IMG/VR virus record: IMGVR_UViG_3300032223_002327
Location: 1-47,165 of that record
Origin: a virus
Strand: one strand, 5' to 3'
DNA length: 47,165 bases
Positions 2 through 24,112 of this stretch are shown piece by piece (the first letter of the stretch is position 1; each line of letters begins with the position of its first letter). The position numbers and the translations under genes are program-made. The notes beneath the pieces are model-generated. The model saw only the letters and a program-made list of their open reading frames with translations, made no database searches and was not told the origin of the DNA.

Positions 2-3000
2 AATGTTGGAATTGCGGAAGCTAATATTTCAGAAGCAACTTTAGTATTTAATAGAGTACTTGATTTATTAAAAAACTCTGGAAGAATAGTAGAAGAAATA
101 GACGGAATAGAAATCAATATCCCAGATATTGACATTAGTGAATATGATGAAGACGGTTATGATGGTGATTTAGAAGATGAAGCTGCGCCAGATTTATCCG
201 AAAAACAAATTAAACAACAGCGTCAAGAAATTCAAGAATTATTGATAAAAGGATTAGATCCTCGTAGCCAAGAATCTTTGATTTCTTATCTATCTGCTTT
301 AATTACTAAAGAAGCATTAGAAAATAAAAATAAAACAGGAAAGTCTTCTGTAGATACTAAAACAATTTTTGATAAGCAAAAAGCATTCTTAACTAAAGTA
401 GCTGCCCTATTAGAGAAGAAAGGATTAGAAAACCGCGCAAAAAGAATTACTACAGTTTTATCTCAATGGGAAAAGGTTAAAAATCTTGTACGCGAAAATC
501 TTTCTTTATTAGATACAGGAACCATAACTAAAAACTACGATGCCGTAGATGGTAACGAGGCAGGGCTAGAAAGAACTAGTTACTCTGACGACTTTACTTT
601 TACGGTTAATTCTAAAAATACTGCGTCGGCAGATCTTAGAAAGTTCTTTGCATTTGTAGAAGCAGTAGATGAAAATAATACGCCGATTACTACTATCCTT
701 AGTTTACCAGAGATAGTTCCATTTGATACAGTGTATGATACTCTCCATGAGATATTAGCAAATAAACCTGCTGACTACGAGACTATGATGAAGATCTTAC
801 AAGATCGTCAAAAGACTTATCCATGGATTCAAAATGTCATTAAAAAATTAGATGAAGCTCCAGAAAAAATAAAAAATGAATTCGTTTCCGATATGGCTAA
901 GTTTAGTCTAAAAATGGAATTCGTAATGTGGAGCAAAGATTACAATGGAAACTATTCATTAGGATTGTGGTCAAGTAATGCAAGTGCTATTGAGCAAAGA
1001 CTACGTAACATGTGGTCTTCTAATCTTAAAGGAAACTTTACTCAAAGTAATCTAATCACTACAGGTGAAGATGATAATTATGTTTTTAATGAAACAGTTG
1101 CTAAAGGATTAATTGCTCAAGCAGAAGAATGGAAAAAGAATCCGCCGTCTAAAGATAAGGAAGGAATCCAACAACTGACCAAATGGTTAGGCAATTTTGG
1201 TATCGTACTTTCTGACAGAACTTACGATGATTTAATACAAGGTAAGTTTAAAAATCGATCAGTACTATCCTGGCAAGGATTATTTAACAGCAGCAACGGT
1301 TTAGTAAACATCCTTAGCAAAAAACTTGATGTCAATCTTGAGACTAAAAATATTGATGATGTAGAATTATTTACTGACACAGTGATTCAAAACTTAGCAA
1401 AGTTTGAAGCACGTAACGTTAGTAATGTATTCAGTAACTCTTTCCAATCAGGAGGTAAAAGCATTTACTCTTATACTAATGGAAACTATGCATTGTCAAG
1501 AATGCGCGACCTTACAGCACTTAACCCTGATGGAACTTTTGTTAACCAAGATCTAATTAATAAATTAAAACAAATTTCTTTTAGCTCAGATAGTCTTTGG
1601 TTATCAGAATTAACTGCTGATGATTCTACAGGAGCTTTGATGAGAGACTCGTTAGGCTTAGGATATGTATCATTAGAAGCACTTAAACAACAATTTACTC
1701 CAACACAAGATAATAGAAAGCTAAACAAACTTACTAATGGTGAGCATGAAGTAGTAAAACTAGGTATGTTTTTTAACAATACTTTAGCAGATACTAATAA
1801 CGGCAAACGTAGAATAGTTTCTTTCTTATATCCTACAATGTCAGATAAGTCTACAATGACTGTCATTAGAACATTGGCACAGAATATAAAACTTACTGAC
1901 GGCAAATTATCTAAAGAAAGTTTAGAGTTATTATACAAAGCAGTAGTTCTTCCAGAGTTAAACAGAATGATGGGTAAACAACCTTCTGACATCAAAGGTT
2001 ATGAGCCTAATTATTTTTATTTCATGCCTAGTTTAAATTCTAAAGAAGTAACTATAGGAGAAGAAACTAAAAGCATTAGAGATTTTGCATTAGACGGCAA
2101 AGCTTTTTCTAGCGATTTAAAAGATTTTATTCTAGATGAATTACAAGAAGTATTTACAAAATTAGTTGATGATAAATTAACTGCTTGGGACAAACTAGGA
2201 GTAGGAAAAACAAATAAAGAAACTAACGACATCCACACATTCCTTAATAAAGGCTATATGAGTAATATAGCTAGAGGAGTTACAAGTGCGGAAAAAGTTC
2301 GTTATGCTGCAAGTGATTTTGTTTTTAATTATTTAATCGCAAACTCAGAGGCTTTTAAAGTAATCGCTGGAGACCCTGCATTATTCTACAAAAAGAGTAG
2401 CAAAGAAAATGCTACTATAATGGATGATATTGAGGAAACTTATATCAACTTAGGTAAACGTCTTGCTAAAGATATCGCTCCAGGATTAGAACTTGCAGAT
2501 TCACAACATAATAAATACTACCAAGTTTTCTTCAATGATAAAAAAATGAAGAGTAACAATGTATCTGATCCAATACAAAAGGCGTATTTCGACAAAATTA
2601 TTAAAAACTTTAGTAAAAACTACTCAGGAATTGAAGGATCCGATGCACAGGAATATACCACTTGGAGAGAACATTTATATGTACTAAATCAATTAGGACG
2701 TATTACTGAGAAGCAGCACAATACTATTAAAACTAAACTAGAAAATAATGAAAATTTAAGTTCTAATGAATTAGGATTAGTATTCCAGCCATTAAAACCT
2801 GTTTACACAGGAAACATTACAGATACAGATAGAAATGTAGACCGAGTAGTTTATATTAAATCCTCTAGTTTCCCGTTGATTCCTCAATTAACTGCAGGTC
2901 TTGAGATAGATAAAGTAAGAGCTGCTTTAGAAAAATTTGAGAATAATAATAAGTCAGGAAGAAATGCTGATGGAACTCATGTAACAGTGCGTGCATCTTT

Positions 3001-4117: not shown

Positions 4118-7100
4118 ATGAGTTGTAAGTATTTAGTTAATGGTAAATGGATCTCCGAGGGAGAACTTAAACAAGTATTGAATAATGGATTACTAGATAA
4201 TCTAATTGCTAACAATACTATTGCTTTAGAAGGATTTCCAAAGGATCCTAATAAAATAATTTCTGTAAAAGAAAACAGATTTATTAATACTACTAAATCA
4301 ATACCTGCTAAAATACTAGCAGATATTTTAACAAAAGAAGTTGCAACTCGACCAGGATATCCACAAAATATAGCTGCTGCATTAGAATTAAATAAAGCAG
4401 GAACAGATTTTAAAATTCCATTATGGTCTTCTCCTTATGCAGATAAATTTGAAGCATTGCTTACATCATTAATTTCTAATAATGTTGTTAAGCAAAAGTT
4501 CCCTGGGCATTCTTATGTCTTAGGATCAGAAGAAGGATTTAGATTAAAACAAGGTAAAAATACTAAAGAGCTTAAAAAATCAGGAATAATTTTTACAGAA
4601 AAGTTTGACCCAGAAAAAGGATTGCAGCCAATGCGCCATGATCCTGAAACAGGTAAAATACTTCCTGCACAAATTATGATTCCTTTTAGATTTAAGGATG
4701 AAAAAGGAAATGTATTAAATATTAAAGACTTTACCAAAGAAGTTGATGGTAGATTAGTAATTGATTATACTAAACTTCCAGAAAAAGCACTGCAACTATT
4801 TGGTTTCCGTATTCCTACCCAAGAGCAAAACTCTATGGCCGCTGTAGAAATAGTAGGTTTCACAGATAGTTTATCAGGGGATTTAATTTTAGCCCCGCGT
4901 GATTTTACTAAACAGATGGGGTCCGACTTTGACGTTGATAAATTGTACACGTACATGTACAATACGTATTATAAAGACGGTAGAATACATACAGACTTTT
5001 TATCTGACAAAAACAAGATAGACACTAAAATTAAAGAAGTTAAAGAAGAGATTGAATTAATCCGCGCAGAATTAAAACTATCTAAAGAAGAAGATGAGGT
5101 TTTAAATAAATTCTTAAAAAAAGAAGCTGCAGAAGACGTAGAAGAAATATCAGAAGAGCAATTGTCGAATTTGCTTACTAATATGTCTAAGAGAGCTAAA
5201 GAAGATATTGTTAAAGATTTAAACAATGCACTAGACGAACTCTCAGTTTTAAAACGTTCTTATGTAGCAGCTAATCAAAATGAGATTATAAACATTCACC
5301 AAAGAGTAATGACTTCAAATAATCCTGAAGTTATTCGTGCAATTATGTCATTAGACAGTGCAGGAGAATTTAAATCTTGGGCAGAAAAAATTAATAATAT
5401 AAGAACAGAAAAAGGAAAGGTTCCGCCTATTGTTAGTTTGCTATCAGACGAATACCAAAAAATAAAATACATCAACGCTACCGCAGGTAAAGACGGTGTA
5501 GGTACTTTTTCATTAGACTCTACTTTTAATGCAACAGCACAAGGAAAAGACTTAGTATTTATCAATCTTTCTGATGAAGCTATGGATGAGTTATTTCAAT
5601 TTGGAATAACACCTTCTGCTTCAGAAGTTATGGAAGCTAATAATCCAGTTACTACTTTTGGAGATATTACTTCTAAAGGAGATATGTCTAATAAATATAC
5701 ATTGCGATCTCAACAAATTATAGAGAATGCTAAAAAAGAAGGCAGAAAACTTTCAGACGAAGAAAAACAGTCCCTTAAAACTAAATCTGTAATCATTCGA
5801 TCCTTGCAGTCAGGTGCCGTAGATAATGAAAAAGAGCAGATTCTTGATAAATTAAATATCAATAACGGTACATTTGATGCTATTAGAGCATTGGCAATAC
5901 TAGGTTTTGAAGAAGATGATATTGTCTCTTTAATTACCCAAGATATTATTTGGGAATATTTAGAAGAAATTGCAAACACACAATCTTCTTTGACCCAATT
6001 TGTTCCTAATATAGAAGATAAAATCCTAGAAAAACTTACAGCAAAGTATGATCCAAAAGGAACGCTAGCAGATATGGAAGAGTCTAGAGTAAAAGAAATT
6101 GAAAATTACTCAGCAGAGACTTTAATAGATCTACTAAAAACTTCTAATTTAACTGAAGGACAAAGTAACTTTAAAAATGTAGAACAGTTAATACTTCTTA
6201 GTAAGTTTAGATCTTTATCTGAAATAGGAAAAGATATTAAAAAACTACAAGGAGCTATCAACACAGAGTCTAAAGGTGTTCCAAAATCTATTATTGAATC
6301 ATTTACTAAACTAAAACAGATTAATAATATTGGAACAGGCAGTGTGTTTAACGCAGAGAGATTACTCGGTGAATACGAAGTTACTCCACAAGGCAGCACT
6401 CTCATCAAGCCTACTACTATTAATGGGTTTGCTTCGTTCTACGGAACAAAAACAGCAACTGATTTATTTAATAAGTACTTTCCATACAAAGAAAAAGGAT
6501 TTGAAACATTAGTAGATGAGATAGTATTCTTAACTCATGGGGAAACTCCTATATCTACAACTAAGCAAACAGAAATACGTCAAGAAATTTTTGACAATAT
6601 CCGTTCTTATTTTTATTCTTCTCGTGATTTAGGTATGTTTACCGAGGATCCATTCTCTGAGCGCAAAAGATTATTTATTGACAGTAAGGCTACAGAAACT
6701 ACTCCAGAAAATAAATCATTGGCTAAAATACTATCATTGATACAAAACAATAAATGGTACCGTGAAAACGGATTCTTAAATAAACTACAACCTAATTTAA
6801 ATTCCAACGGAGATATTTCAAGAGTTACTTTTGAAGCAGCTACTGCGGAAAACTTTGATGAAAAAAATATATACATAGGGTTTATCTCTTTGCTTGATAA
6901 AAATTTCCCTATTGGAAACTTTAATGGTAAAGAATATACTAGTAGAATGCTAGCACAAGATTTAATTATGGCTGCATTTTTAGATGGTGGACAACAAGGA
7001 GCTAAACAATATTTAAAATACATACCAACTGCATACTTAAAAACTACAGGATTTGGTAATTATTTAAATAGAATCACTTTTGATTTTGAAAATACTTTTG

Positions 7101-10048
7101 GTGGTAACGAAATGGACGGTAAATATAATCCACTACAGCCTTCTAAGTTTGCTCGCCAGTATTTACAAAACAATCCTACAAGCGCAAAACGAATTACATT
7201 AGCAGATACTCAGGAAAAAAGTGATAAACTTCCTGATACATTTAAACTAACTAAAGAAGCAGTAAAAGATAATATTGTTAGTGTAATAATCGGCGGAGAT
7301 ACTTTCCAAACACAAACTAAATTTTTAAGTATTTTCGATAGCAAAACTCCTGGTAAATTTGCTTTGTATGAATATAATAGTTCTACACAATCTTATAATA
7401 GAATACCTACTTTAGCAGGAGACTATGGATTTAAACAATATAATATCTATCAAGATACTCCTGTTTCTATTATAACAAAACAGGATCCTAAAACTAAAGC
7501 AACTCAACAAATACTTCCTCCAGCAAATACGGCACCGCCGTTAAATACTTCTGGACCAGTAGTAAATAATTTAAAAGTTACTGTTCCTGTTAGAACAGAT
7601 TTAAGAGGTGCGGAAAAAATCAACGATCTTTTAAATAAATTAGAAGAAAATAAATTAGTTAGTGTTTACAACAAAAATCTAATTACTTTATTAAGAAGTA
7701 TGCCAGATTTAGATAAAATAAATGTTGTTTACAATGATGATTATACAGCGGCGGGAAGCTATAATAGTGAAAGCAATACTGTAACACTCAATTTTAAACT
7801 TATGAATAATTTAGAGTTTACAGAAAACAAAAAAGCTTCTACAATTATTCATGAATTAATTCATGCCTACAGTTCTAGTGTAATTAAGGCTTATCAAAAA
7901 AATGATCTTAGCAAATTAACAAAAGCACAGATTAAAACTGTAGAAAAATTAAAAGCACTTCAAAAAGAATACATCGATTCTTTAGTAGCTTCTGGAAATA
8001 AAGCAGATTTAATTACTTTCCATAATACTTATTGGACTAAAAAATTAGAAAATAAAAAAATAAGCAAAGAAGATTATGATAAAATTATTGCTCGTGGTCC
8101 AGCAGGATTAGGTACTGATGAAACAACTCCATTAGAATTTAACACAGAAGCTCTTAGTAAATACTATGGAGCAATTAAATTAGAAGAGTTTGTAACAATG
8201 GCTCTTACAGATGAAGGATTCCAAAGATTACTTAATGAAGTAGAATCTGGTGACCCTCTGCCTTTCTGGCAACAGTTAGTAGATTTATTAATAGAGTTAA
8301 TAGAAGGGGCGTTAGATATCAAAATAAACAAAACTTCTATACTTCCTAATGCTATTGAAGAATCGTTGAATCTTTTGAAAACTAATATTAATAATATTGT
8401 CCCAGCTATTTCTACACAACCAACTATTCAACCTACTGAAGTTAAAGAAGAAGTACAAGAACCTAAATATGAATTATTTCCAGGAGTTTATGCTAATCAA
8501 GGGCAAAGAACAGCTATTGATTTACTTACAGATTTCTTAGATTCGGACAAAACAGCTTTCTTATTACAAGGAAAAGGTGGTACAGGAAAAACTACAATTA
8601 TCAAAAAAGTAGTAGCGGAAGCACAAGCAAATGGTATGTCAGTACTTGGTATAGCCCCTACTCATAAAGCTAAAAAAATACTAGGCAATTCTATTAAAAC
8701 TATCAAGACTACTACTTTAGCTGCAGCATTAGCAATTAAATTAGATGAGTCTACTGGTAAATTTACTCCAGATGAATTTGCAAGGAGTCGTGGTAGGGTT
8801 CCTATTAAAGGGGCACAATTAATAGTTTTAGATGAATCATCTATGATCTCTGATAAATTATTAGAAGAAATTAAACAGATGTTGCCTAAAGGTTCTAAGA
8901 TTATTTTCATGGGAGACCGTGCTCAGTTACCTCCTGTTGGACAAGAATCTGACAGTAAAGTATTTGATGTACAAAATGGTTATGAGTTAACAGAAAAAAT
9001 GCGCCAAGCAGCAACTTCCCCTATTATTAATATTGGAAGTAAAGTAGCAGCTAACGTAGAGACTACAGAAAACAGGGTAGCAAATCCTATAGAAAATTCT
9101 GATAGAATTAATCAAGTAGATCCTATTAGTGGTTCTTCTGTAACTTGGGAGTCAAATGAAACAAAAGCTCTAGATGATTTTGCTCAAGATATTAGAGATG
9201 CTAATGGAGATTTAAATTTTGCAAAAATTGTTACATTTAATAATCAAAACCACAATAATCCACAATCTGTTAAAAATCTAAATAAAAAAATCAGAGAAAG
9301 ATTATTTGGGGACGAAGCAAAAGAAAAACAATTTATTCCTGGGGAAATTTTAACTGCTTATGATTCTTTTGGTGGAGAACAGCCTGAATTCTATAATAGT
9401 GAAGATTTCACAGTAGCAAATGCAGAAGAAAGAAAAGATAGCAAGTTTACTGCTACTGCAAATTCTGCTGCTAAAGGAGTAAGATCAGTAGATATAACTC
9501 TTGATATAGTTTACTTAGATTTAATAAATGAAGAAGGTAAAACTCTTCGTAACATTCCTGTTGTTGCAGAAAGCAGTAAAGCACTTTACGAAAATACTCT
9601 TCAGAAATTATTTAAAACAGATCCGCAATTAGCTTATAGTTTACAAAACAAATTTGCTAATTTAGAATATGGTTATGCGATTACTTCTCACAAAGCACAA
9701 GGTTCTACTTATACTAATGTGTATGTAATGGAAGATAATATAATGGGCCCTTCAAACGGAGGATCTATTAAAGCTAAAAACCAATCTTTGTATGTAGCAG
9801 TTTCTAGACCTACTACTAAATTAGTAATGGTTTCAAATAAAAACAGTGGACAACAAGCTCCTGCAAAATCTTTCAATCCTATGAGTTTTTCTCCAGAGGA
9901 AATGGAAAATTTAAGACAAGCTAACCGTCCTTCATTTGAAGACGAGCAAGCATACAATAATATGATGGGCTACTCAGATGAATTAATAGACCCAACTATT
10001 TTAAATCCTTCTGAAATGGAAGAATTTTTGTTACTTTGTAAGAAATAA
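4118..10048 (+). CDS. Virion RNA polymerase (beta'-like barrel) fused to zincin-like and SF1 helicase domains
   Basis: The product has 1976 residues. Residues ~248-278 contain RIPTQEQNSM, then GSDFDVDKLY with D270, D272 and D274. This is the DxDxD metal-binding loop and the preceding R-P-T/S-L/Q element of two-barrel RNA polymerases, as in the virion polymerase of Cellulophaga phage phi14:2. Residues 1245-1249 read HELIH, a zincin metallopeptidase motif. From ~1460 an SF1B (Dda/RecD2-like) helicase follows: Walker A GKGGTGKTT at ~1485, LIVLDESSMIS at ~1570, FMGDRAQLPPVG at ~1600, ITSHKAQGST at ~1855 and YVAVSRPTTK at ~1890. Such polyproteins are packaged in crAss-like virions and may be cleaved. 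The polymerase call is strong on motif; cleavage and protease activity are inference. Start is an ATG 11 bases after the ferritin-like stop. Confidence 0.8.
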   Translation: MSCKYLVNGKWISEGELKQVLNNGLLDNLIANNTIALEGFPKDPNKIISVKENRFINTTKSIPAKILADILTKEVATRPGYPQNIAAALELNKAGTDFKIPLWSSPYADKFEALLTSLISNNVVKQKFPGHSYVLGSEEGFRLKQGKNTKELKKSGIIFTEKFDPEKGLQPMRHDPETGKILPAQIMIPFRFKDEKGNVLNIKDFTKEVDGRLVIDYTKLPEKALQLFGFRIPTQEQNSMAAVEIVGFTDSLSGDLILAPRDFTKQMGSDFDVDKLYTYMYNTYYKDGRIHTDFLSDKNKIDTKIKEVKEEIELIRAELKLSKEEDEVLNKFLKKEAAEDVEEISEEQLSNLLTNMSKRAKEDIVKDLNNALDELSVLKRSYVAANQNEIINIHQRVMTSNNPEVIRAIMSLDSAGEFKSWAEKINNIRTEKGKVPPIVSLLSDEYQKIKYINATAGKDGVGTFSLDSTFNATAQGKDLVFINLSDEAMDELFQFGITPSASEVMEANNPVTTFGDITSKGDMSNKYTLRSQQIIENAKKEGRKLSDEEKQSLKTKSVIIRSLQSGAVDNEKEQILDKLNINNGTFDAIRALAILGFEEDDIVSLITQDIIWEYLEEIANTQSSLTQFVPNIEDKILEKLTAKYDPKGTLADMEESRVKEIENYSAETLIDLLKTSNLTEGQSNFKNVEQLILLSKFRSLSEIGKDIKKLQGAINTESKGVPKSIIESFTKLKQINNIGTGSVFNAERLLGEYEVTPQGSTLIKPTTINGFASFYGTKTATDLFNKYFPYKEKGFETLVDEIVFLTHGETPISTTKQTEIRQEIFDNIRSYFYSSRDLGMFTEDPFSERKRLFIDSKATETTPENKSLAKILSLIQNNKWYRENGFLNKLQPNLNSNGDISRVTFEAATAENFDEKNIYIGFISLLDKNFPIGNFNGKEYTSRMLAQDLIMAAFLDGGQQGAKQYLKYIPTAYLKTTGFGNYLNRITFDFENTFGGNEMDGKYNPLQPSKFARQYLQNNPTSAKRITLADTQEKSDKLPDTFKLTKEAVKDNIVSVIIGGDTFQTQTKFLSIFDSKTPGKFALYEYNSSTQSYNRIPTLAGDYGFKQYNIYQDTPVSIITKQDPKTKATQQILPPANTAPPLNTSGPVVNNLKVTVPVRTDLRGAEKINDLLNKLEENKLVSVYNKNLITLLRSMPDLDKINVVYNDDYTAAGSYNSESNTVTLNFKLMNNLEFTENKKASTIIHELIHAYSSSVIKAYQKNDLSKLTKAQIKTVEKLKALQKEYIDSLVASGNKADLITFHNTYWTKKLENKKISKEDYDKIIARGPAGLGTDETTPLEFNTEALSKYYGAIKLEEFVTMALTDEGFQRLLNEVESGDPLPFWQQLVDLLIELIEGALDIKINKTSILPNAIEESLNLLKTNINNIVPAISTQPTIQPTEVKEEVQEPKYELFPGVYANQGQRTAIDLLTDFLDSDKTAFLLQGKGGTGKTTIIKKVVAEAQANGMSVLGIAPTHKAKKILGNSIKTIKTTTLAAALAIKLDESTGKFTPDEFARSRGRVPIKGAQLIVLDESSMISDKLLEEIKQMLPKGSKIIFMGDRAQLPPVGQESDSKVFDVQNGYELTEKMRQAATSPIINIGSKVAANVETTENRVANPIENSDRINQVDPISGSSVTWESNETKALDDFAQDIRDANGDLNFAKIVTFNNQNHNNPQSVKNLNKKIRERLFGDEAKEKQFIPGEILTAYDSFGGEQPEFYNSEDFTVANAEERKDSKFTATANSAAKGVRSVDITLDIVYLDLINEEGKTLRNIPVVAESSKALYENTLQKLFKTDPQLAYSLQNKFANLEYGYAITSHKAQGSTYTNVYVMEDNIMGPSNGGSIKAKNQSLYVAVSRPTTKLVMVSNKNSGQQAPAKSFNPMSFSPEEMENLRQANRPSFEDEQAYNNMMGYSDELIDPTILNPSEMEEFLLLCKK

Positions 10049-16491: not shown

Positions 16492-17361
16492 TCAAAATAT
16501 ATACCTAATAGTGTTCCATGGAATAATTTTATCATGGAGCTCTGTGAATTCTTTAATATATCTAGCTTTTAAATCATAGCGATATCTCACATTTTCCGCA
16601 CCATACTGTGAAGTCTTACCTTCTTGTAATTCTGGGATCCATAATAACTTCTCTCCTAATCGATTGTTCATAAGATTTTCTTCGTGTTTCTTGATATTAT
16701 GAGTCATAAAAATAACCTCAGCAAGTACTTCATCTTTATTGTCTACATAATTACTCATCATATAAAACAATTCCTCATAATCTTCTAGCCAATTGTCATA
16801 AACAATCACAGGACTAAAATTTACATGCACCTCGTAACCTGCATCTATAAAACCATCAATAGCTTTTATTCTATCAATAATCTTTGCAGTATTAGGCTCA
16901 TAGATATCTGATAGTCTTTGCGGCATTAAACTAAATCTAATCCTTACTTTTCTTTCAGGATCATAATTTAAGAAAATCTCTGGAATAATTTTAGTTGCAA
17001 AAGTAGCTTTAGCAACTGGATGCTGTTTAAAGAAATCAAAAATTCTTTGCCAATCATAAAACTTAGCATGTAGTGCAAAGTCTTCATTGCACGAAATATC
17101 ATAAGTTACAAACTCAGGATCCGTTTGATTCGGCTTTTCTACTTGATTCTCAAAATAAGCATGGTTATTAATACTAGTCAAAATATCTCCAATATTTTTA
17201 GCCACATCTAAACCTTTAGGTTTATGGCGTTTCATGTAGCAATTATGCGTCAATATACCATTTGCAAAATAATTTTCATTCTTTTTTACAGAAAAGTTAA
17301 CAACCTTAGATTGTTTTGCTATCTTTGTTATAGCTTTAATTTTCTTAAATTTTAATTCCAT
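16492..17361 (-). CDS. Intein C-fragment plus C-extein of SPL-like radical SAM protein
   Basis: The first 40 residues, from the ATG at 17361, are an intein C-terminal fragment: block F-like SVKKNENYFANG and block G ILTHN, followed by Cys41 as the +1 residue. The remaining 249 residues begin CYMKRHKPKG and match the spore photoproduct lyase (SplB-like) radical SAM family, with TYDISCNEDF, ATKIIPEI, RIRFSLMPQ and HVNFSPVIVYDNW. The N-terminal part of that enzyme, including all three cluster cysteines before splicing, is missing here and is coded separately at 17901-18323. Trans-splicing would join 39 + 249 residues into a 288-residue enzyme, probably for UV-photoproduct repair. An in-frame GTG at 17388 would add nine residues; the ATG is preferred. 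Confidence 0.85.
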   Translation of the reverse strand: MELKFKKIKAITKIAKQSKVVNFSVKKNENYFANGILTHNCYMKRHKPKGLDVAKNIGDILTSINNHAYFENQVEKPNQTDPEFVTYDISCNEDFALHAKFYDWQRIFDFFKQHPVAKATFATKIIPEIFLNYDPERKVRIRFSLMPQRLSDIYEPNTAKIIDRIKAIDGFIDAGYEVHVNFSPVIVYDNWLEDYEELFYMMSNYVDNKDEVLAEVIFMTHNIKKHEENLMNNRLGEKLLWIPELQEGKTSQYGAENVRYRYDLKARYIKEFTELHDKIIPWNTIRYIF

Positions 17362-18184
17362 GAGCTGTAAATATTGTGGTAAAATCACAAAAAAGTATAC
17401 AACCTATTGTAATTCTACATGTGAAACAAATTATGCTGAATTATTTAATCAGCAATCTAAACCTACTTTTAGAACTTTTCAAGAAGCAGGTAGACATTAT
17501 AATAGAGATTTCAGAACTATGAAAAAGTTTGAAGGTCTACTATTTACTATTGATAAAAATTTACCTTCTGCAAGTACAAAATGGATAATTTGTAAAATTT
17601 GCAATGAACAGTCTCCTAAATCTAAAGCAAGAAAAGGTTATTGTAAAGATTGCACTTCTCAAGGATTAGGTAAAAAAAGACAGGGCCAAATAATATCTCA
17701 AAAATATCAAGGCTCTGGAAATCCTAATTACTTAGATGGAAGTTCAAATGCTGTAGAATATCAATCTAATGAATGGTACAAGCTTAAAAAGAATTTAAAC
17801 TTTACACACTGCGCATTAACTAATAACCCTGATAACATAGATTATCATCATATTATTCCAAGATGGTTTTGTAAACTTGCTAATATAGATGTATTTGATC
17901 CTAATAATATTGTAGGTTTAAATCATAACTTTCACAAAGTAGTTCATCATCTTCAGTTAGATGTTTTGCTTCTACCCAACCTCTATTCTTTGTATAAAAA
18001 GGATGCTCTCCAGTTACGGTTACACTTTGTTCATCTACTTCAATTACATAAAGTTCATCTGTATCCCGTTGACCAATTGCAGTCACTAAGTCTGTTTCAA
18101 CTTTCTCGTTATTCAGGGAAAAAGAAATTACTTGATTTCCTTCCTGAATTTCTTCAGCCATTTTTGGACCAAAAGGAGTTGTAA
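17360..18184 (+). CDS. HNH homing-type endonuclease, antisense between split-intein halves
   Basis: This plus-strand gene lies between two minus-strand half-genes. It has a Cys-rich N-terminus (MSCKYCGK, then two further Cys), a second zinc-ribbon-like segment (ICKICNEQ and GYCKDC, ~residues 77-100) and an HNH core at ~160-197: DYHHIIPRW, then DPNNIVGLNHNFHKVVHH. It resembles homing endonucleases that spread inteins or introns. Its ATG (17360) shares CATG with the ATG of the intein C-fragment gene. From 17901 onward it is antisense to the intein N-fragment gene; the HNH Asn and last His are already within that overlap, while the ~76-residue leucine-rich tail after ~195 looks like mere antisense read-through. 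The nuclease is well supported; the true C-terminus is uncertain. Confidence 0.82.
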   Translation: MSCKYCGKITKKYTTYCNSTCETNYAELFNQQSKPTFRTFQEAGRHYNRDFRTMKKFEGLLFTIDKNLPSASTKWIICKICNEQSPKSKARKGYCKDCTSQGLGKKRQGQIISQKYQGSGNPNYLDGSSNAVEYQSNEWYKLKKNLNFTHCALTNNPDNIDYHHIIPRWFCKLANIDVFDPNNIVGLNHNFHKVVHHLQLDVLLLPNLYSLYKKDALQLRLHFVHLLQLHKVHLYPVDQLQSLSLFQLSRYSGKKKLLDFLPEFLQPFLDQKEL

Positions 18185-18323
18185 TAATAGTATCAGGGGT
18201 CACACAGTAACTGCAGTCAAGCATGCAGCCGTAGCCAAATGACGGAGTTATATAATCTGATGATCTACCAGAATGTCTTATTATAAAACTCTTTCTATTA
18301 ACAAATTTTACGATTTTTTCCAT
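17901..18323 (-). CDS. N-extein of SPL-like radical SAM protein plus intein N-fragment
   Basis: From the ATG at 18323 the product has 140 residues. Residues 1-39 are the start of an SPL-like protein (SSDYITPSFGYGCMLDCSY, with Cys33 and Cys37). Residue 40, the third cysteine of CX3CX2C, is also intein Cys1. Residues 40-140 are a typical ~101-residue intein N-fragment: block A CVTPDTIITTPFG and block B TVTGEHPFYTKNRGW with TxxH. It ends with a TAG at 17901, without endonuclease or C-terminal splicing blocks. The partner fragment is coded at 16492-17361. A longer start at 18356 would lie in the terminator hairpin and is rejected. Two terminators stand directly upstream, so it likely has its own promoter, which I could not identify. 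Confidence 0.85.
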   Translation of the reverse strand: MEKIVKFVNRKSFIIRHSGRSSDYITPSFGYGCMLDCSYCVTPDTIITTPFGPKMAEEIQEGNQVISFSLNNEKVETDLVTAIGQRDTDELYVIEVDEQSVTVTGEHPFYTKNRGWVEAKHLTEDDELLCESYDLNLQYY

Positions 18324-18336
18324 TAGTCTAGTTTTA

Positions 18337-18372
18337 ATAAAATAACAAGGGCCCATATTTCAGAGCCCTTGT
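18337..18372 (-). terminator. Terminator upstream of the fractured SPL gene
   Basis: On the minus strand ACAAGGGC and GCCCTTGT form an eight-pair stem (18345-18372) with a 12-base loop, followed by TATTTTATT. It is a second stop after the terminator at 18402-18431 and isolates the SPL-UNG-MazG operon from the replication genes. Confidence 0.7.
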
Positions 18373-21752: not shown

Positions 21753-22922
21753 TTATTTAATTGCCATCTTTACGACAAGCGGGTTCAACATTAATTTACT
21801 AAACTTAGGTTTGTTACCATTAAGCAATTCTTTGACAATGTAATATTTCAAATCTTCAGTAAATACTTTAGTATCAGTAGTCAGCTTAACGAGTCTTTGA
21901 ATCATAGCATCAGGAATACTTTTGGTTTTCGCCATATTTAAAGAGAAATTTACCACACGAGTTGCTACAATACTAGAAATATCTGCTCTAAAGTCATCAT
22001 CTTCTCCTATCATATCTTTCAATGCTCCCATCACATAGCCTTCATCTTTTGTCAAGATATCTTCGGGCCCTATAATTCTATCAAGTTTGTTATTGATAAA
22101 CATAGTAAACATCCCAGAAAAATCTGTACCCACAGAACCTTCACCAATCATTTGTATCAACGGCAATTGATCTTCGAATTTAGGAATAGAACTAATTGCA
22201 TTAAAGAATGTAGTAATCGATCTTGGATTTACTCTTTGAGTTACTAACTCTGGATTCATCAACATGAAGTTAATACAACGGCCATCAATCTTTACTTCCT
22301 CTGCCCATTTAGCCCATACGTTAACGTCATATTTCAATTCTACAGAAATAAAACGAGTTTGTTGAGCTACGTCAAGTGTAGTTACATTGTAATCACCGTT
22401 ATCAGGATTAGTAGTCAAAATAACATGCCAATTTTTAGGAAGTTTCCATGAAATATATTCTTGTCTGTCACATATTTCCATAGTTGCTTGCATAAATCTT
22501 GGCTCGGCGCGAGTAAAATCATCTAAGATTAAAATACCGCCTTCTTCTTTACCCTGAATCCATTCTGGCGCAGCATGAGACATTCGTTTGTCTACTACTT
22601 TATAACCTTTAGAACTTGCTGTTTCAATTTCTTGCTCAGTAATCCAAAGAGTTTTACCTTCAGCATTTTTAACTTTAAATTCTTTGATAGGAAAACCGAT
22701 AAGATCACCCAACTCTTCTATTTGAGATAGATTTAGTTTTACAACAGATAATCCTAATTCTTCTCCCAACTGAAGTATTGCGGAAGTTTTACCGAGCCCC
22801 GCATCGCCAGCGATATTCACAGTTACAGGCACTTTGCCATCTGCTTGAATAGCTTGATTATTGCTCACCATGTGTTTGACGAAGTTTTTTAACTCGTCTA
22901 CATTTAATTTTACTTGATTCAT
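21753..22922 (-). CDS. MoxR-like AAA+ ATPase
   Basis: 389 residues. Walker A is AGDAGLGKT (39-46), followed by VKLNLSQIEELGDLIGFP, Walker B GGILILDDFTRA (~130), then TTNPDNGDYNV with sensor-like ending QQTRF. This is the MoxR family, which acts as a chaperone-like remodeler with a VWA-domain partner; that partner is encoded next (22934-24112, 11 bases away). The pair probably remodels a protein or nucleoprotein complex during phage takeover; the target is unknown. Confidence 0.82.
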   Translation of the reverse strand: MNQVKLNVDELKNFVKHMVSNNQAIQADGKVPVTVNIAGDAGLGKTSAILQLGEELGLSVVKLNLSQIEELGDLIGFPIKEFKVKNAEGKTLWITEQEIETASSKGYKVVDKRMSHAAPEWIQGKEEGGILILDDFTRAEPRFMQATMEICDRQEYISWKLPKNWHVILTTNPDNGDYNVTTLDVAQQTRFISVELKYDVNVWAKWAEEVKIDGRCINFMLMNPELVTQRVNPRSITTFFNAISSIPKFEDQLPLIQMIGEGSVGTDFSGMFTMFINNKLDRIIGPEDILTKDEGYVMGALKDMIGEDDDFRADISSIVATRVVNFSLNMAKTKSIPDAMIQRLVKLTTDTKVFTEDLKYYIVKELLNGNKPKFSKLMLNPLVVKMAIK

Positions 22923-22933
22923 TTATTAATTTT

Positions 22934-24112
22934 TTAAAGTTCGAGTTTAATTACTCTTCCAGGAAGAGATTCATTCATGCTGGATCTTTCAGATAAAACC
23001 CATAAAATTTTTCCTGACGGTTTTTTATGAGTAGTACACTCACCGTCAGTAAAATAGATTAAACTTGTAAATTGGCGATTTTGCTCAAAATATTCTAATA
23101 CAGGATCAAAGGATGTTCCACCTCTACCAGATACTTTTAATTCAAATTTACCTTTGTAATCTTCAATAGATGTAATCTGCGTATCACATTGTACAATTGT
23201 GATATCTACACCTGCTTTATGAATATGATAAATCTCATTCATAAATTCTTTAAGCTCAGTGTCACTAACAGAACCTGATGTATCTATTGCTAGCAACATC
23301 TTTTGACGCATCTTAATCTTTAAACCAGGATTATCAGAGAATCTTTTATTATCCTTTCTTCTAAGTTTCTTAGTAAAAATCTTAGTAGATATCCCTGTAA
23401 ACCTACGGATATAAGCTCGCCAATTAAATTTAGGAGCAAGTATCTCATCGATTATAATTAAACCATCAATTTCCCCAGGAACATGGCCTTGTTTCTTCAA
23501 AGTTTGTTCCTTAGCTTCAGATAAAATTCTCTGAACCTGCTTATCAATAAGCTTTTGTTCTGCCTCAGATAAATCTTCAAATTCATCCCACGTACTGTGA
23601 TCAGGAGTTCCTTCACCTTGATCTAATTGATCACATAGTTTATCAAAATTACTATCACCAGAAGTTCCTGTTTGATCCTTTTGATCTTTAGCAAGTCTTA
23701 GTCTATCATAATAATAACGACAGCCTGCTTTTGTATCTAAGTTTAAATCTGAATAGTTTTCAATAAATATGCCGTTTTCAGGGAGCCAATCTTTAGGAAT
23801 ATATTGATTAATTTCCATATCCATTGCGATATTAGCAAGCTTTCTATCAGAGAACTTAAACACAATAGATAAATGACCAAATGCAATATGAAGAAGCTCA
23901 TGTTTTAAAATACCCAATCTTTGCTCATCATTTAATTCTTCCCAAAAGTTAGAATTAATAATCAATTGATAATTGATACCATTTTTACCTACACCAGCAG
24001 TGGGGATTTTTTCAGACCAAAACTTATTTAATTGAATCAAAAAGAACCCGTAATAGGGCTCCTGCAACATTAAATCTTTACTAGCTTTTGCTAGCATTTC
24101 TACTTTATTCAT
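22934..24112 (-). CDS. VWA-domain protein with metallopeptidase-like N-terminal domain (DUF2201 type)
   Basis: 392 residues. The N-terminal domain contains KHELLHIAFGH (71-80), a zincin-like HExxH plus later His. The C-terminal VWA domain shows the MIDAS motif LLAIDTSGSVS at ~272-282 and VSGRGGTSFDPV at ~335. This architecture is known as a MoxR partner, and the ATPase follows immediately. The middle region is acidic (DQLDQGEGTPDHSTWDEFED). It may bind or cleave a target presented by the ATPase. Confidence 0.8.
   Translation of the reverse strand: MNKVEMLAKASKDLMLQEPYYGFFLIQLNKFWSEKIPTAGVGKNGINYQLIINSNFWEELNDEQRLGILKHELLHIAFGHLSIVFKFSDRKLANIAMDMEINQYIPKDWLPENGIFIENYSDLNLDTKAGCRYYYDRLRLAKDQKDQTGTSGDSNFDKLCDQLDQGEGTPDHSTWDEFEDLSEAEQKLIDKQVQRILSEAKEQTLKKQGHVPGEIDGLIIIDEILAPKFNWRAYIRRFTGISTKIFTKKLRRKDNKRFSDNPGLKIKMRQKMLLAIDTSGSVSDTELKEFMNEIYHIHKAGVDITIVQCDTQITSIEDYKGKFELKVSGRGGTSFDPVLEYFEQNRQFTSLIYFTDGECTTHKKPSGKILWVLSERSSMNESLPGRVIKLEL

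Follow-up and report, generated by a model that had tools for sequence, protein, structure and literature searches.

The stretch of viral DNA analysed here (47,165 nucleotides, IMG/VR virus record IMGVR_UViG_3300032223_002327; hereafter the window, meaning this stretch at its full length) carries an SPL-like (spore photoproduct lyase-like) radical-SAM gene, for a DNA-repair-like enzyme, that is broken in two by a 965-bp unit, and this unit is very probably a mobile element in which a split intein is combined with an antisense, partly dual-coded HNH endonuclease gene that homes. This reading is drawn from sequence comparisons, both within the window and with related phage contigs.

The broken gene and its split intein

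The SPL-like protein is coded by two separate minus-strand genes, an N gene (18323-17901) and a C gene (17361-16492), as the initial annotation, made from the letters alone, had described; their parts are listed in Table 1. The N gene starts with the ATG at 18323, and a second in-frame ATG at 18356 would add 11 amino acids (aa). The intein N fragment (IntN) of about 101 residues and C fragment (IntC) of about 40 residues, the latter ending ANGILTHN ahead of a cysteine, which that annotation had also proposed, are both recognised by intein models, at 33.7 bits with TIGR01445 intein_Nterm (cut-off 24.5) and at 24.8 bits with TIGR01443 intein_Cterm (cut-off 15.6). Its count of extein residues (39 + 249 = 288), reading continuously through GCMLDCSY-CYMKRH, is likewise correct, and joining the exteins, as it had advised, raises the score for PF20903 (SPL) from 66.6 to 87 bits (cut-off 27) and that for TIGR03886 from 263 to 310.7 bits (E=1.3e-92). 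The gene is called “SPL-like” only, since the PF20903 cut-off is passed but the equivalog cut-off of TIGR03886 (437.6) is not reached.

The third cysteine of the CX3CX2C motif follows directly on the break and doubles as the +1 nucleophile of the intein. C1, T65 and H68 of IntN, H39 and N40 of IntC and C+1 are invariant across 15 aligned elements, and all hallmarks of class-1 split inteins are present: C1, the TxxH of block B, a C-terminal H-N and a nucleophile (C, S or T) at +1. In relatives, IntN counts 98-101 aa and IntC 40 aa, with their own stop and start respectively; each is encoded in its own gene, the split point being the canonical endonuclease site. Given the class-1 residues, the exact continuity of the exteins and the existence of an allele free of the insertion, a split intein in the SPL-like gene is well supported. 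No continuous frame joining the halves was found, nor the same break without intein blocks, either of which had been named beforehand as speaking against it. The split-intein reading of the initial annotation thus stands but was incomplete, as the antisense HNH gene and the mobile 965-bp unit had been missed.

An intron is ruled out by the lack of any Rfam match and by the intein blocks, and a misassembly by the recurrence of the unit on 40 further contigs. A longer C-half gene, beginning upstream of the CATG at which the C gene and the HNH gene start, was also rejected, as the upstream frame closes after three codons in several members. In a distant element (L153:2869-3001), the SPL-like gene reads GCLGGCMKSY-C at the break, which corresponds to CX3CX4C and not to CX3CX2C. 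At another locus (L090:2634-3269), the piece coding for the SPL N-terminus occurs twice, about 530 bp apart, ahead of the element.

The antisense HNH gene

The N and C genes lie 539 bp apart, and the gap is filled by a plus-strand HNH gene, which continues antisense into the IntN gene for 284 bp, counting stop codons. This is the arrangement of a fractured gene, in which split-intein halves are separated by an endonuclease gene that has a start and a stop of its own, though here that gene is antisense and overlapping. The motif residues H163-H164, N183 and H192 are invariant in 25 members; the product also has cysteine pairs reminiscent of two zinc knuckles. PHROG HNH families match 22 of 25 relatives (phrog_8048, matched by these 22 with a best E of 3.4e-8), and a profile search of the PDB returns the HNH regions of IscB and colicin E7, at sub-threshold scores only. 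The AlphaFold model is fairly confident to about residue 240, and its confident helices 189-197 (the last helix of the motif) and 205-229 are both encoded within the overlap. Outside the overlap, the ratio of nonsynonymous to synonymous change (dN/dS) is 0.13.

The C gene and the HNH gene start head to head, and in 30 of the 33 loci listed for the close group (26 distinct sequences) the shared CATG is kept together with the HNH ATG. In L092 and L093, where the HNH ATG is lost (ATA), the start seems to have moved into IntC, to an in-frame ATG three codons upstream.

One stretch of DNA, two readings

In the overlap, each wobble base of IntN faces a second position of the HNH frame. Across the close group, there is hardly any variation in the position of the IntN stop (codon 99; 102 in the window), in the length of the HNH ORF (273-276) or in the head-to-head starts. 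Codons 1-14 of IntN show a silent variation of 0.39-0.46, compared with 0.00-0.13 for codons 15-98; third positions of IntN differ by 0.446 outside the overlap and by 0.05-0.09 inside it, and the synonymous divergence (dS) of the IntN frame is 0.91 outside as against 0.11 inside. Within the overlap, the mean pairwise difference at IntN third positions is 0.079 and 59 of 89 such positions are invariant; HNH third positions outside the overlap differ by 0.336 on average, with 13 of 157 invariant. The constraint is also visible from the other strand, as HNH third positions inside the overlap, which are second positions of IntN, differ by 0.11-0.16 in comparison with the same 0.336 outside.

The HNH frame is open in all complete copies, and random synonymous recoding of IntN keeps it open in only 0.05-1.5% of trials. 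In a pairwise null that kept the IntN protein and gave each of nine pairs its own silent rate (1000 simulations), the observed HNH identity was reached in none of the 1000 simulations for seven pairs, in 2 for one pair and in 24 for the closest pair. A chance antisense open reading frame (ORF) is ruled out by the recoding and by these simulations. The overlap is also retained in deep members, whose IntN is 42-66% and whose HNH is 33-60% identical to that of the window. Third-position identity is higher in the overlap than in the C-extein of the same genomes (0.88 versus 0.40 in L112, 0.83 versus 0.41 in L148, 0.58 versus 0.36 in L152 and 0.64 versus 0.44 in L153), a comparison that is supportive only, as the element moves independently of its host gene.

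Both frames bear the mark of purifying selection that a genuine sense/antisense overlap calls for, and in statistical terms these comparisons show both readings of the overlap to be under selection. The same DNA thus encodes the intein and part of the nuclease, two unrelated proteins, because the silent sites of IntN are nearly frozen, the HNH frame is unbroken and the overlap is kept where IntN is only 42-46% identical. As to how the antisense read-through arose, the simplest guess is that an inserted nuclease gene overprinted the antisense strand of IntN.

Mobility and distribution

In a closely related phage (L002), the SPL gene is unbroken and free of the insertion; over about 3 kb per side, its flanks are about 95% and about 89% identical to those of the window. 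To the right of the insertion, the first 80 bases are identical to L002; on the other side, 9 of the 20 adjoining bases differ, falling to about 1 in 50 thereafter, and a difference of this kind beside the insertion is what co-conversion from a diverged donor leaves behind. Elements with 97-99% identity occupy host genes that are only 61-68% identical in the right flank beyond 300 bp. Between L091 and L106, HNH third positions are 99% and C-extein third positions 56% identical, and L097 and L109 show the reverse. An empty site, co-conversion and incongruence with the host gene are thus all in evidence, and the 965-bp unit, on the strength of these comparisons, behaves as a mobile element in many related phages.

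Searches of IMG/VR with the N gene, IntN alone and HNH returned the same unit on 40 further contigs (41 with the window), at the same SPL-like site wherever the contig spans it; the best 80 matches of a search with the joined exteins are all unbroken SPL-like genes. The most distant members, L148, L152 and L153, have an IntN 66, 46 and 42% and an HNH 60, 34 and 33% identical to those of the window, respectively, and retain the antisense ORF across IntN.

Some 20 other split-intein loci on phage contigs came out of the same searches and, together with the fractured genes reportedly described in 2009, make the earlier characterisation of natural split inteins as rare an overstatement. In these other loci (L154-L193, several of them closely related), intervening ORFs of at least 100 aa lie on the sense strand, after IntN. 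Eight of them (L160, L161, L164, L166, L174, L181, L184 and L186) have split inteins in an apparent ribonucleotide reductase gene, with the same intein halves and with intervening genes that differ by contig, some being GIY-YIG-like. A single ORF in L182 (L182:2896-4734) contains three intein-like Hint domains in succession, and HNKG closes each of them.

Proposed mechanism and competing explanations

In the proposed mechanism, the N gene would yield an N-extein-IntN precursor and the C gene an IntC-C-extein precursor, translated separately; to judge from the conserved residues, the halves would associate and splice in trans into a 288-aa enzyme with an intact CX3CX2C motif. The last 94 or so codons of the nuclease, with the third-histidine helix of its active site, are written antisense through IntN. 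During co-infection, the nuclease would probably cut an empty SPL allele of the other phage close to where the element inserts, and the element would be copied in as the break is repaired; homing of this kind is suggested by the empty allele, the scar and the incongruence of element and host gene. The overlap would compact the element and may tie about one third of the nuclease to a splicing sequence that the phage needs.

Several points weigh against this reading. Matches of the HNH product to Pfam are weak, and the window's HNH is not named by Pfam; a fold search of the PDB with the model gives weak HNH-type matches only, and the model has low confidence over residues 245-274. Relatives of the HNH were not found in isolated phages, nor in cells by a pattern-based scan of 84,980 cellular genomes. 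The site-wise contrast between IntN third positions in the overlap and HNH third positions outside it (Mann-Whitney p=7e-21) is weaker on strictly conserved fourfold codons alone (13 versus 14 sites, p=0.013), and these p-values are optimistic and not fully independent, because the sequences are related and IntN itself constrains part of the overlap.

Among the alternatives, the one that survives best, though it is unlikely, holds that the nuclease acts elsewhere, for example by excluding other phages, and that the element spreads by ordinary recombination. Free-standing phage HNH nucleases are generally known to have several roles, but among the loci returned this HNH is never seen outside this element or at another site, and the scar extends over no more than the 20 bases next to the insertion, as break repair at the site predicts.

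It is slightly less likely still that this is an ordinary fractured gene whose HNH effectively ends near residue 205, the remaining antisense ORF being accidental and the silent conservation of IntN being due to RNA structure, recent spread or gene conversion. The HNH motif does end at about residues 197-205, ahead of the low-confidence end of the model, and part of the spread of the element is recent; recent spread does not, however, explain a dS of 0.11 in the overlap, because the HNH-unique part of the same elements has diverged silently to a dS of 1.1. Over the DNA of the overlap, identity is higher in the HNH frame (0.855) than in IntN itself (0.803), the null based on IntN alone is rejected, and the ORF stays open even in the members with the most divergent IntN. 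Even an accidental extension would leave about 70 bp dual-coded, third histidine included.

That the two SPL halves are separate subunits or dead, the element having inactivated the gene without any splicing, is very improbable: cases are known in which a nuclease gene splits NrdA into two peptides that still work (cited in a passage of PMC10448857), but here the splicing residues are all invariant, IntC is under purifying selection (dN/dS 0.17) and up to 97% identical between phages, and every member keeps its exteins in frame and its cluster motif. Unspliced halves are, moreover, unlikely to bind the cluster, because its third cysteine is on the other chain.

Relation to known systems

In 2009, Dassa et al. 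reportedly described fractured genes that combine split inteins with free-standing endonucleases; in that class, too, a conserved phage gene is said to be broken by a split intein into separate genes, with an endonuclease gene between the halves, and to be mobile. The present element differs in that its nuclease is an HNH enzyme, lies antisense and has 284 bp in common with IntN. It is thus a mobile fractured gene of this parent class, in a dual-coded antisense form, and no precedent for an intein dual-coded with its nuclease was found in the open-access literature.

Other systems resemble it in part. ShiLan-type hidden HNH insertions in phage methylase genes (PMC11855218) likewise place the frame of a homing HNH endonuclease across a second open frame in the gene that hosts it. 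Both frames there run on one strand, the second has no known function, and a self-splicing domain was not found; the HNH of the present element, in contrast, is antisense and overlaps a catalytic intein fragment. In the Didymium group I intron S956-2 (PMC13182076), the homing endonuclease gene likewise lies on the strand opposite its self-splicing element, but the carrier is a group I intron in rDNA, and no overlap with a protein-coding splicing domain was found reported there. The intein-containing Rv2578c family radical SAM proteins (NF038136) share the presence of an intein in a radical-SAM protein; they belong to another family and have both halves in one protein. Residues 43-135 of the N product align to positions 68-159 of NF038136 (E=0.0007, a weak match and a lead only), and since this alignment crosses the extein-intein border it suggests the same insertion point in the cluster motif. 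Finally, crAss-like phages of some groups are rich in inteins and introns, according to passages of PMC7886860; the inteins treated there differ in lying in core genes such as TerL, as single ORFs, and those passages mention no SPL gene or split intein.

Features of the element and its surroundings

Table 1. Coordinates of the element, its parts and candidate signals in the window (empty strand cell, no strand given).
Feature	Position	Strand	Remarks
N-extein	18207..18323	-	Residues 1-39 of the SPL-like protein; its end, GCMLDCSY, holds the first two cluster cysteines; kept in the empty allele L002
IntN (intein N fragment)	17901..18206	-	101 aa + stop TAG (17901-17903); C1...TGEH; TIGR01445 above cut-off
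IntC (intein C fragment)	17242..17361	-	40 aa, ATG at 17361, ends ANGILTHN; TIGR01443 above cut-off
C-extein	16492..17241	-	249 aa + stop, begins with third cluster cysteine (C+1); PF20903, TIGR03886
Whole insertion (IntN + antisense HNH + IntC)	17242..18206		965 bp; not in the empty allele L002; codon-exact boundaries
HNH endonuclease gene	17360..18184	+	274 aa + stop TAA; PHROG HNH families; open in every complete copy
Dual-coded stretch	17901..18184		IntN (-) and HNH residues ~181-274 (+): third HNH histidine H192, its helix, C-terminus
CATG, head-to-head overlapping starts	17359..17362		C-half gene (-) and HNH gene (+)
Co-conversion scar	18207..18226		9/20 bases differ from L002, then ~1 in 50
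Stretch of low silent variation, HNH codons 1-26	17362..17437		Upstream of the C-half gene; dS 0.225 vs 1.116 in HNH codons 27-180
TATCTTTG	17320..17327	+	Resembles Bacteroidota -7 element TAnnTTTG; 40 nt before HNH start, inside IntC

The stretch of low silent variation at the beginning of the HNH gene is probably a leader or promoter of the C-half gene. The TAnnTTTG-like element occurs in 24 of the 26 distinct elements, but conserved IntC codons fit the motif too, which leaves it a weak lead as a control signal. Directly upstream of the N gene lies an inverted repeat (18341-18372, ACAAGGGC...GCCCTTGT), which would cover the first N-gene codons should translation begin at the ATG at 18356; it is a candidate terminator or leader hairpin.

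As for the genome itself, its terminase is 34% identical to that of Cellulophaga phage phi14:2 and its family-A DNA polymerase 36-39% identical to those of crAss-like phages; on these matches the window is taken to be an environmental crAss-like phage, and its host is probably a member of the Bacteroidota. Elsewhere in the window, most of a plus-strand ORF of 1976 aa (4118-10048) matches phrog_16227, a giant virion protein family, and its C-terminus (residues 1452-1910) matches a Dda-like helicase family, an unusual fusion. In the replication region (21753-24112, minus strand), adjoining genes code for an ATPase that looks MoxR-like by eye, without a Pfam match, and for a VWA-like DUF2201 putative metallopeptidase.

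Significance

The homing endonuclease of a fixed element is generally expected to decay, and the question of nuclease decay is directly testable here, with about one third of the nuclease locked to the intein; among about 39 full-length copies, no broken nuclease was seen. The unit may well be, with somewhat better than even confidence, a selfish element with its split intein and homing nuclease on opposite strands, in which the shared third of the nuclease, third motif histidine included, cannot decay without altering a splicing domain that the host gene requires. Assembly of the enzyme should depend on splicing, because the insertion lies directly before the third cluster cysteine. Within 965 bp, the element encodes two proteins with known catalytic motifs that overlap in sense/antisense orientation, an arrangement retained at identities as low as 33-46%, and the SPL split inteins, with IntN sequences 42-97% alike, are new material for trans-splicing tools. 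If the reading is true, each transcript would be antisense to the other, and dual coding could keep the nuclease intact after fixation.
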